Source: Desulfarculus sp.
GTDB lineage: Bacteria > Desulfobacterota > Desulfarculia > Desulfarculales > Desulfarculaceae
DNA length: 64,000 bases
Direction: 5' to 3'
Assembly (NCBI GenBank): GCA_003605055.1
Contig: QZKP01000006.1
Span: forward strand, 1 to 64,000
Shown here piece by piece: positions 48,172-53,615 of the stretch. Position 1 is the first letter of the stretch, and each line of letters starts with the position of its first letter. The notes below the pieces were generated by a model, which worked only from the letters and a program-made list of their open reading frames with translations, did no database searches and had not been told where the DNA came from. Position numbers and translations under genes: made by a program.

Positions 48172-48834
48172 ATGGGGACGTTGCCTAAAATTTGTGATGA
48201 GATACTTAAAGAAATCACGTCAGACGATGTGGAGGTTCGCGCGAAGTTTCTAAAAGAATTCAGCAGCCGCGCGTACGAATTTTCAGACGTGATGGGAAAG
48301 TCATTACTTGCGTGGCGGAAGTTCGACGCAAATATCGTAGACAACGAAAAGCTTGCTCATATCTCTGCGCTAATGTTCACGGCGATCTCTCTGCACATCC
48401 AGTCGATGAAGCTGTTTCTGTCCGGACTGCCTATACCAGCAGGAAATGCATTTCGGCAGGTCTTGGAAATAATCAGTCTTGCACTTTTATGTTCCAGCAA
48501 CCAACTCGATGTTCTCGATCGCTTCATGCAAGATAAGTATTCCACGCAGAAGGCCGTTAGGGATGTGCTGCGACATTCTGAAGGGTTAGGTCTGTTGAAA
48601 GAGGGGGTTGCCGTCCTTCAGAAGCAGCAAAAATTTTATGATAAATATAGCCACCCAACGAAGATGACCATTGCGTCTATGATTTCCTTCACAGAGGAAG
48701 GCATTTTTGTTGGCGCATCGTTCGACGACGGCAAGCTGGTCGCCTATACGAAGGAAATCAGGAGACGAGTAGAACTCGCGAAGGTTTTCGTGAGCCTTAT
48801 TGAGACAGTCAAAACTAATGTTGGCAAATGGTAG
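48172..48834 (+). CDS. Hypothetical protein, AT-richer than surroundings
   Basis: 220 aa ORF MGTLPKICDEILKEITSDDVEVRAKFLKEFSSRAYEFSDVMGKSLLAWRKF...; atypical codon usage (many AAA/ATA/TTA). Confidence 0.7.
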   Translation: MGTLPKICDEILKEITSDDVEVRAKFLKEFSSRAYEFSDVMGKSLLAWRKFDANIVDNEKLAHISALMFTAISLHIQSMKLFLSGLPIPAGNAFRQVLEIISLALLCSSNQLDVLDRFMQDKYSTQKAVRDVLRHSEGLGLLKEGVAVLQKQQKFYDKYSHPTKMTIASMISFTEEGIFVGASFDDGKLVAYTKEIRRRVELAKVFVSLIETVKTNVGKW

Positions 48835-50771: not shown

Positions 50772-53615
50772 ATGATCATCGCGGATCTGCACATCCACTC
50801 CCGCTACTCCCGGGCCACGGCCAGGAGCCTGTCCCCGGAGCAGCTCTGGCTGGCCGCCCAGCTCAAGGGCCTGGACCTGGTGGGCAGCGGCGACTGCACC
50901 CACCCGGCCTGGCTGGCCGAGCTGGACGAGAAGCTGCGGCCCAACCGCGAAGGGGCCTACGAACTAAAGCCGGTCCTGGCCGCTTCCATTGCCGAGCAGG
51001 TGCCCGGCCCTTGCCGCCGGCCGGTGCGCTTTTTGCTCTCGGCCGAGATCAGCACCATTTACAAGCGCGACGGCAAGACCCGCAAGGTGCACAGCCTGAT
51101 CCTGCTGCCGGACTTCGCCGCGGCCTACCGCCTTAACCAGCGCCTGGGCAGGCTGGGCAACATCACCAGCGACGGCCGGCCCATCCTGGGCCTGGACACC
51201 CGCGACCTGCTGGAGCTGTGCCTGGAGGTGGAGCCCAGCGTGGTCTTCATCCCGGCCCACGTCTGGACCCCCTGGTTCAGCCTGTTCGGCTCCAAGAGCG
51301 GGTTTGACTCCATAGAAGAGTGCTTCGAGGATCTCAGCGGCCACGTGCACGCCCTGGAGACCGGGCTGTCCTCGGACCCGGCCATGAACTGGCGGCTGTC
51401 TGCCCTGGACCGATTTCTGTTGGTGAGCAACTCCGACGCCCACAGCCCGGCCAAGCTGGCCCGGGAGGCCAACCTGTTCGCCTGCGCCCCGGACTATCCC
51501 TCCATCGCCCAGGCCCTGAGCGGGCCGGAGCAGCCCGGCCTGCTGGGCACCCTGGAGTTCTTCCCGGACGAGGGCAAGTATCACCTGGACGGCCACCGCA
51601 AGTGCGGGGTGCGCCTGACCCCGGCCGAGACCGCGGCCCTGGGCGGACTCTGCCCCCGCTGCGGCAAGCCGCTGACCGTGGGGGTGCTGAACCGGGTGGA
51701 AGAGTTGGCCGACCGCCCGCCCGGCTTCCGGCCGCCGGACGCGCGCGGCTATGAGTCCCTGGTGCCCTTGGATGAGGTCCTGGCCGAGGTCATGCAGCAG
51801 GGCGCGGGCAGCAAGGGCGTGCAGGAGGTCTTGGCCGAGCTGCGCCGCCGCCTGGGCCCGGAGCTCTACGTCCTGCGCGAGGCGCCGCCGGAGGATCTGG
51901 CCAAGGTCGGCGGCCCTCTGTTGGCCGAGGCCGTGCGGCGCACGCGCGCCGGCCAGGTGCGCCTGGAGGGCGGCTTCGACGGGCAGTTCGGGGCGGTGCG
52001 CCTGTTCGAGGCCAGCGAGCGCCGCCAGATCAAGGGCCAGGGGCTTTTCTGGGAGCTAAAGCCCCAGCGCCCGGCCAAGAAAAAGGCCGCGGCCCAGGAT
52101 CGCAAAAAAAAGATCGCCGCCGAGCCGCTGCTAACGCCCCTGGACCCGGCCACGGACGGGCTCAACGAGCAGCAGCGGGCCGCGGTGGCCCACCGGGGCG
52201 CGCCGCTTTTGTTGCGGGCCGGGCCGGGCGCGGGCAAGACCCGCCTGTTGGTGCAGCGGGCGGTGGGCCTGGTGGAGGAGGGCGCGGCGCCGGAGCGGGT
52301 GCTGCTCATCACTTTCACCCGCAAGGCCGCCGCGGAGCTGGCCCAGCGCCTGGCCGAGCAGAAGACGGGCGCGGCTCAGGTTAAGGTGGCCACCTTCCAC
52401 GCCCTGGGGCGGGAGGTGCTGAGCCAGGCCCTGGGCGAGGCCCCGCTGCTCCTGGAGCCGGCCGAGCGCGAGGCCATCATCGCCCGCCTGGCCAAGGAAG
52501 CCGGCTGGCGGGCCGGCGAGCTGGACTTGGCCCTGACCCGGCTCAAGCAGCGGGTGGAGGCCGAGCCTGGGCTGGAGCTGGCCCCTCTGTGGCGGGACTA
52601 TCAAAAGGCCCTGCAGAAGCAGGCGGCCTGGGACCTGGACGACTTGGTGCGGGGCGCGGTGCTGGCCCTGGCCCAGAACCCGGCCCTGGCCGCGGACTGG
52701 GCGGGCCGCTTCAGTCATGTGCTGGTGGACGAGTACCAGGACAGCAACCCGGCCCAGGTGGCGCTCTTAAAGGCCCTGGTGGCCGGCGGGGCCTCGCTTA
52801 TTGCCATCGGCGACCCGGACCAGGCCATCTACGGCTTCCGGGGCGCGGACCGGGCCGGGTTCGCAAGCTTCGCCCAGGACTTCCCCGGCGCCGCGGAGAT
52901 GGCCCTGACCCGCAACTACCGCAACAGCGCCCCGGTGCTGGCCGCGGCCCAAGGGCTCATGGCCGGCCAGCCGGACCCGGGCCGGCCGCGCCTGTCGGCC
53001 CAACGGCCCGAGGGCCCCACGCCGGTGATAGTGGAGCTGGGCTCGCCCCAGGCCGAGGCGGCCTGGGTGGCCCGCCGGATCGTGGAGCTGACCGGCGGCC
53101 TGGACTCGCGTCAGGTGGAGCAGGGGGGCCAGGGCGGGGAGTTGGGACCGCGGGACATCGCCGTGCTCTATCGCCTGCACCTGCAGGCCCCGCCCCTGGT
53201 CGAGGCCCTGGCCCGGTTGGGCGTGCCCTATCAGGTGGCGGCCAAGGAGCCCCTGTCCGAAACCGACCCCCTGGATTTCCGGGCCCAGCGGGTGAGCCTG
53301 CTCTCCCTGCACGCGGCCAAGGGCCTGGAGTTCGAGGCGGTGTTCATCGTGGGGGTGGAGGAGGGGCTCTTGCCCTACCGGCCGCCCCAGGGCCAGCCGG
53401 CCGACCCGGAGGAGGAGAAGCGCCTGCTCTACGTGGGCATGACCCGGGCCCGCCGCCTGCTGTACCTGAGCCGCTGCAGCCGGCGCACCCTGTTCGGCAA
53501 ATACCGCCGGCCGGCCCCTTCGCCGTTCTTGGCTGAGATCACCACCCAGTGGCTGGAGAAGGAGCAGGCCCCGCCGCCGCGGGCCCGCGTCCATCAGATG
53601 GACCTGTTCGGCTGA
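50772..53615 (+). CDS. EndoQ-like PHP endonuclease domain fused to a UvrD/PcrA-type helicase
   Basis: N-term MIIADLHIHSRYSRATARSLSPEQLWLAAQLKGLDLVGSGDCTHPAW...LLSAEISTIYKRDGKTRKVHSL...FIPAHVWTPWFSLFGSKSGFDSIEECF...SNSDAHSPAKLAREANLF and KCGVR..CPRCGKPLTVGVLNRVEELADRP; C-term SF1 motifs AGPGAGKTRLLVQRA, VDEYQDSNPAQ, GDPDQAIYGFRGAD, LTRNYRN, LHAAKGLEFEAVFIVGVEEGLLP, RLLYVGMTRAR. Confidence 0.93.
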   Translation: MIIADLHIHSRYSRATARSLSPEQLWLAAQLKGLDLVGSGDCTHPAWLAELDEKLRPNREGAYELKPVLAASIAEQVPGPCRRPVRFLLSAEISTIYKRDGKTRKVHSLILLPDFAAAYRLNQRLGRLGNITSDGRPILGLDTRDLLELCLEVEPSVVFIPAHVWTPWFSLFGSKSGFDSIEECFEDLSGHVHALETGLSSDPAMNWRLSALDRFLLVSNSDAHSPAKLAREANLFACAPDYPSIAQALSGPEQPGLLGTLEFFPDEGKYHLDGHRKCGVRLTPAETAALGGLCPRCGKPLTVGVLNRVEELADRPPGFRPPDARGYESLVPLDEVLAEVMQQGAGSKGVQEVLAELRRRLGPELYVLREAPPEDLAKVGGPLLAEAVRRTRAGQVRLEGGFDGQFGAVRLFEASERRQIKGQGLFWELKPQRPAKKKAAAQDRKKKIAAEPLLTPLDPATDGLNEQQRAAVAHRGAPLLLRAGPGAGKTRLLVQRAVGLVEEGAAPERVLLITFTRKAAAELAQRLAEQKTGAAQVKVATFHALGREVLSQALGEAPLLLEPAEREAIIARLAKEAGWRAGELDLALTRLKQRVEAEPGLELAPLWRDYQKALQKQAAWDLDDLVRGAVLALAQNPALAADWAGRFSHVLVDEYQDSNPAQVALLKALVAGGASLIAIGDPDQAIYGFRGADRAGFASFAQDFPGAAEMALTRNYRNSAPVLAAAQGLMAGQPDPGRPRLSAQRPEGPTPVIVELGSPQAEAAWVARRIVELTGGLDSRQVEQGGQGGELGPRDIAVLYRLHLQAPPLVEALARLGVPYQVAAKEPLSETDPLDFRAQRVSLLSLHAAKGLEFEAVFIVGVEEGLLPYRPPQGQPADPEEEKRLLYVGMTRARRLLYLSRCSRRTLFGKYRRPAPSPFLAEITTQWLEKEQAPPPRARVHQMDLFG

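Follow-up and report, generated by a model that had tools for sequence, protein, structure and literature searches.

AddAB, AdnAB and RecB combine an SF1A motor and a nuclease in one polypeptide; they act at double-strand ends, and their nuclease is C-terminal and belongs to the RecB family. The motors of PcrA, UvrD and Rep translocate 3'-5'. A natural PcrA without subdomain 2B, the PcrAs of Mycoplasma pneumoniae (MPN340), is an active helicase and formed no stable DNA complexes (PMC3720892); Rep-delta-2B, as cited in the same paper, is faster than the wild type. For the endonuclease EndoQ, Ala mutants of E76, H84 and H139 abolish the activity of PfuEndoQ, and the residues of its pocket have also been named (PMC8307549). 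The C-terminal PIP tail of archaeal EndoQ binds PCNA and is required for PCNA stimulation, and clamp motifs were noted earlier in EndoQ of B. subtilis and Desulfovibrio (PMC4858679). As for the steps after the EndoQ nick, a helicase or strand displacement was proposed in 2015 by Shiraishi and colleagues, in whose model, as given in the legend of Fig. 10, the next actor is either a flap nuclease or a helicase that is not named (PMC4357722). EndoQ in bacteria, EndoQ clamp motifs and an SF1A helicase without 2B have each been described before; the papers searched contain no recurrent fused or paired EndoQ-helicase system that has a helicase subfamily of its own, and full-text searches of the literature outside subscription returned no description of an EndoQ-helicase fusion.

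Here we describe such a fusion from Desulfarculus sp. (assembly GCA_003605055.1), encoded in the window, that is, the whole stretch of 64,000 nucleotides that was analysed (positions 1 to 64,000 of contig QZKP01000006.1). A preliminary description, made from the sequence alone, had reported one continuous reading frame joining the two halves, and its coordinates and quoted motifs are all as described there, as is the Lys-rich linker, which is disordered in the model (Table 1). In several orthologues from the genus the open frame starts at, or just before, the same Met. Two genomes assembled as a single contig (G005, G010) also contain the fusion, and selection on each half is purifying (dN/dS ~0.30 for the EndoQ half and ~0.33 for the helicase half, in a comparison with L007), which together rule out an assembly or frame artefact. 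The neighbours of the fusion in the window encode a LonB-like protease, ordinary regulators and signalling proteins, so that a conserved repair neighbourhood was rejected here. A 220-aa ORF without a Pfam match lies between the LonB-like protease and a sigma-54 response regulator (48172-48834, + strand).

Table 1. Features of the EndoQ-helicase fusion gene and their positions in the window
Feature	Position	Strand	Remarks
EndoQ-helicase fusion, whole gene	50772..53615	+	947 aa; ATG at 50772; end coordinate includes stop codon
EndoQ domain, aa 1-415 (PHP catalytic core, zinc-binding domain, C-terminal helical domain)	50772..52016	+	Alignment, model, Foldseek TM 0.89 to 5zb8
Zinc site H275, C278, C294, C297	51594..51662	+	His where PfuEndoQ has first Cys
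Junction QGLFW (Q423-W427)	52038..52052	+	Probably left over from the C-terminal clamp motif of an unfused EndoQ
Lys-rich disordered linker, aa 428-461	52053..52154	+	pLDDT < 50 over 424-461; least conserved part
Helicase 1A, 1B and first half of 2A, aa 462-822	52155..53237	+	Motifs I, Ia, II, III, IV, IVa; subfamily GG-loop ~aa 773-795
18-residue connector, aa 823-840, at the expected place of subdomain 2B	53238..53291	+	Interval counts, model
Second half of 2A, aa 841-930	53292..53561	+	Motifs V (LHAAKGLEF) and VI (YVGMTRAR)
C-terminal QMDLF (Q942-F946), predicted beta sliding-clamp binding motif	53595..53609	+	Sequence motif

The N-terminal half resembles described EndoQ proteins (PfuEndoQ PF1551, TkoEndoQ, B. 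pumilus EndoQ and MacEndoQ) in fold, PHP ligands, zinc site and pocket residues. Residues 3-416 match PfuEndoQ (5zb8) with an E value of 3e-48, and the AF2 model of this half has the three-domain fold, superposing on PfuEndoQ in Foldseek with a TM of 0.89 and an rmsd of 2.3 over 417 columns. The SDAH motif is present, and the PHP metal ligands H7, H9, E92, H107, H163, E196, D222 and H224 align with H8, H10, E76, H84, H139, E167, D193 and H195 of PfuEndoQ; none has been lost, and all are invariant in 59 of 59 aligned relatives. The same holds for the U/Hx pocket, in which H139, G169 and S171 of PfuEndoQ correspond to H163, G198 and S200, conserved in 59/59. These ligands and pocket residues, together with the structural match, bear out the EndoQ-type PHP domain of the preliminary description. 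Its zinc ribbon is also present as a zinc site, but consists of three Cys and His275 where PfuEndoQ has four Cys, the His standing in for the first of them; since H275 occurs in 58 of 59 members, these bacterial proteins typically have a His-Cys3 site. The fusion further differs from EndoQ in that the helicase is inserted between the EndoQ core and the protein end, and in its NCBIfam TIGR00375 score of 161 bits, which is under the cut-off of 326.6. As none of the 148 genomes of the phylum reaches this cut-off, it excludes the whole sampled bacterial branch, and the assignment here is limited to 'EndoQ-type'. From the conserved active site and the modelled fold, the EndoQ half would be expected to nick at lesions.

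The C-terminal half shares subdomains 1A, 1B and 2A with PcrA, UvrD and Rep, and the complete set of SF1A motifs I-VI reported for it at first is indeed present and conserved. Unlike those helicases it has neither 2B nor the C-terminal Tudor-type region. Pfam places UvrD-helicase at residues 464-705 and only the end of UvrD_C, near motif V, at 835-903; the match to PcrA falls into two pieces (464-823 and 837-930) separated by 13 residues here versus 173 in PcrA. From V822, the end of the 2A strand, to V841, the start of motif V, there are 18 residues, whereas the genome's own PcrA has 159 and the PcrA-like comparison proteins from the phylum have 153-188 in 60 of 61 cases, the sole exception (interval 11) probably being L290, a 389-aa fragment at a contig end. 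The interval of about 20 residues first given for this protein is thus close, whereas that of PcrA-type proteins is ~155-190 and not ~200. Subdomain 1B is mildly short (109 versus a median of 129). The AF2 model, built with 59 sequences (mean pLDDT 89.7), shows nothing but a loop at 823-840 and has no additional domain, which rules out a 2B relocated elsewhere in the protein; absence of 2B is therefore confirmed by the interval counts and the predicted structure alike. Residues 424-461 and 940-947 are disordered in this model, and at a pTM of 0.58 the mutual arrangement of the two halves is not fixed by it.

Foldseek matches of the helicase half are to PcrA, UvrD and Rep, with a TM by target of mostly 0.6-0.66, and those to AddAB, AdnAB and RecB are weaker. 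These last resemble the fusion in joining an SF1A motor and a nuclease in one polypeptide; here, however, the nuclease is an N-terminal PHP nickase, expected to be lesion-specific. All PcrA, UvrD and Rep equivalog cut-offs are missed by the helicase half, and by these cut-offs and by the tree given below it is an SF1A helicase not filed as any of the three. As a natural SF1A helicase without 2B it is comparable to PcrAs (PMC3720892), which differs in being a single-species paralogue unfused to a nuclease, whereas the 2B loss of the fusion is common to a lineage and forms one end of a graded series. The constitutively active motor of the preliminary description is an analogy with Rep-delta-2B and PcrAs, and the fused helicase may by that analogy behave likewise.

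In a helicase tree, the fusions, the operonic helicases and some solo helicases form one clade apart from PcrA, UvrD and Rep (SH-aLRT 99; 87 for the same clade in a second tree). Members of this clade have a GG-loop of 17-28 residues before motif IVa, as compared with 5-17 in PcrA-like proteins, and the GG itself is found in 29/32 versus 4/61. The 2B interval across 78 full-length fusions, the window's included, is 18 in the window's lineage; two Treponema and one Desulfovibrio have intervals of 12, 14 and 30, and all others have 78-166. The series begins with a full 2B (~165), passes through a small one (74-118) and ends with none; the 78-residue interval of an actinomycete fusion (L046) is predicted to form four short helices, a mini-2B. 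A tree computed without the 2B columns implies about six present/absent changes of 2B, at least four of which are forced by well-supported branches. Unfused members of the subfamily also have a reduced 2B of 74-111 residues (74-88 in L256, L283 and L285). As many fusions retain 78-166 residues and some unfused members are reduced, fusion was rejected as the general cause of 2B loss; by these sequence intervals, 2B loss is not part of the logic of the fusion, and its reduction is a tendency of the subfamily that is complete in the window's lineage. The graded loss in fused and unfused members provides a natural series for probing the role of 2B. In three clade members (L285 and L286, from G168 and G084, and L081) motif V ends in KGLEA or KGLGA rather than KGLEF, and L285 and L286 are very short helicases of ~500 aa; altered function or sequence errors may account for these three.

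The fusion is present in all eight genomes of the same genus and in nearly all genomes of the same family. Elsewhere in the genome collection it was found in Desulfobacterota, Treponema and other spirochaetes, planctomycetes, Latescibacterota, Fibrobacteres, Opitutaceae and Bacteroidales, and in actinomycetes including Frankia, Saccharothrix and Kutzneria. A survey across Desulfobacterota, which the preliminary description had proposed, gave a TIGR00375-type match in 105 of the 148 genomes, in frames of at least 850 aa in 42 of these and in frames of ~415-500 aa in most others. EndoQ-type domains are thus common in the phylum, the literature greatly understates how common EndoQ is in bacteria, and bacterial EndoQ may be under-annotated. 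In one further case, L168 (G161), EndoQ and helicase occupy two adjacent frames while other members of its family have fusion-length frames; a frameshift or recent split is possible there.

Where the two proteins are encoded separately, their genes abut at 4 of 58 standalone-EndoQ loci, with the helicase always downstream and on the same strand. In these loci, from four families (L164-L167), the genes are co-directional and overlap or abut, with one gap of ~200 bp; the EndoQ proteins end in QLSLF, QLKLF, QLGLF and QMRLL and the helicases in QMKLF, QLSLF, QLTLF and QMELF. In another genome, of the same class (G022, loci L120 and L121), EndoQ and the clade helicase are unlinked and each has its own tail, the helicase of G022 being a 648-aa protein with a full 2B and the tail QRQKTLW. 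By profile search and inspection of tails, solo clade helicases with clamp-like tails were found in 19 of 59 standalone-EndoQ genomes versus 0 of 43 EndoQ-less genomes (Fisher p 1e-5, a value that ignores kinship, with ~12 families involved); in the EndoQ-less set nearly every helicase match at E 1e-80 was inspected, a few of the sequences being incomplete. Because of the operons and the co-occurrence, the functional link no longer rests on fusion alone, and genomes now name the partner of EndoQ in three ways, by fusion, operon and co-occurrence. The pattern suggests that EndoQ and its partner helicase form a widespread two-step repair system. No partner helicase was found in 40 of the 59 standalone-EndoQ genomes, so EndoQ can work without the helicase.

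Clamp tails, a feature absent from the preliminary description of the system, occur in fusions and in unfused proteins. The fusion in the window terminates in HQMDLFG, of which QMDLF lies in the disordered tail of the AF2 model and is predicted from its sequence to be a beta-clamp-binding motif; a clamp-type C-terminal tail is shared with archaeal EndoQ (PIP) and with other bacterial EndoQs. The pattern Q-[LMIVFAT]-x-[LM]-[FLI] within the last 25 residues was found in 45 of 78 fusions versus 1.0 in shuffles, and its strict form in 29 of 78 versus 0.03, the corresponding background frames giving 15/1534 and 2/1534. Some relatives have tails that fit the clamp consensus poorly (GRLF, PTLFD, HLSLF). 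With a slightly looser pattern, 35 of 58 unfused EndoQs have a clamp-like ending, for example QLSLF. A Q..LF is also found at the junction of EndoQ and helicase in 21 of 76 fusions versus 1.1 in shuffles, and the window reads GQGLFW at this place. With a clamp motif both at the C terminus and at the junction, the fusion resembles an end-to-end joining of two clamp-tailed proteins.

The best reading of these data, and one we consider probable, is a nick-and-unwind module, tethered to the clamp, that serves the excision repair of deaminated bases. In the first step the EndoQ half, to judge from its active site and fold, would flip out dU, dI, dX or an AP site and cut the strand immediately 5' of it, with a 3'-OH and a 5'-P as the ends. 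After such a nick the lesion is at the 5' terminus of the downstream strand, which a 3'-5' motor displaces only if it runs on the intact strand; in the second step the SF1A motor would load on that intact strand at the nick and move downstream. The lesion-bearing 5' end would thereby be peeled off as a flap, to be removed by a 5' nuclease such as Pol I, and the 3'-OH would meanwhile be extended by a polymerase. In the third step, QMDLF on the beta clamp would place the enzyme with polymerase and ligase, so that the intermediate could be passed on at the clamp to the polymerase and the 5' nuclease. The nick-and-unwind machine proposed at the outset from the architecture and 2B loss is retained with this choice of strand added to it, and its linkage is now also drawn from operons and co-occurrence. 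As a single protein, the fusion allows nicking and unwinding to be assayed jointly.

It is unlikely that the protein is instead a lesion-scanning translocase, whose motor would travel on single-stranded DNA near the fork with EndoQ as its sensor, nicking ahead of or behind replication with no unwinding after the nick. U and Hx in single-stranded DNA are also EndoQ substrates (PMC11354406), the clamp tail is present, and loss of 2B removes a duplex-binding subdomain, which would suit a translocase; PcrAs formed no stable DNA complexes (PMC3720892). A nick in the single-stranded template at a fork would, however, break the fork, and a full 2B is retained in several of the operonic and unfused forms, which resemble ordinary helicases.

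Phage or plasmid defence, in which EndoQ would nick foreign DNA with uracil or modified bases and the motor would destroy it, appears very unlikely. Nuclease-helicase pairs are common in defence systems, and a review has raised an antiviral role for bacterial EndoQ as something that may exist (PMC8307549). Against this, the fusion is conserved on the chromosomes of nearly all members of the genus and family, its neighbours are those given above, and the clamp tail fits repair better. A phage or plasmid origin was rejected, the EndoQ half having no match in 72,556 plasmids and no phage record spanning both halves.

It is scarcely more than conceivable that the fused helicase removes a patch after two nicks, the one 5' of the lesion by EndoQ and the other 3' of it by EndoV. 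UvrD removes a short patch in a parallel manner after UvrABC, and EndoV is encoded in the window's own genome; helicase removal after EndoQ and EndoV was also proposed for the archaeal enzymes (PMC4357722). Only 6 of 31 relatives have EndoV above the cut-off, whereas most have the fusion, and EndoV was therefore rejected as a required partner. Equally remote is a motor half that is no working helicase and serves as an ATP-driven clamp, loader or relic on EndoQ, for which the missing 2B, the shortened 1B and the motif V variants of L081, L285 and L286 (KGLGA or KGLEA) could speak, but all SF1A motifs are intact here, the dN/dS is ~0.33, and the natural 2B-less PcrAs unwinds DNA (PMC3720892).

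For the nick-and-unwind module, the ancestral state was probably a separate clamp-tailed EndoQ and a UvrD-like partner helicase that were later fused. The 2B of the partner shrank repeatedly, perhaps because EndoQ took over a duplex-holding or regulatory role. It is possible, though on balance doubtful, that these proteins constitute a glycosylase-free pathway of deaminated-base excision in bacteria, in which EndoQ and its own clamp-bound SF1A subfamily, as separate genes, operon or fusion in many phyla, would act together, with EndoQ replacing 2B both as duplex anchor and as regulator of the motor. UDG is present in 29 of 31 relatives, so the EndoQ pathway is not the only route of uracil repair, and the fusion as a replacement of UDG was rejected on the same count. 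The EndoV gene of the window's own genome is located at G000:C10:80276-80857; most relatives are without one.
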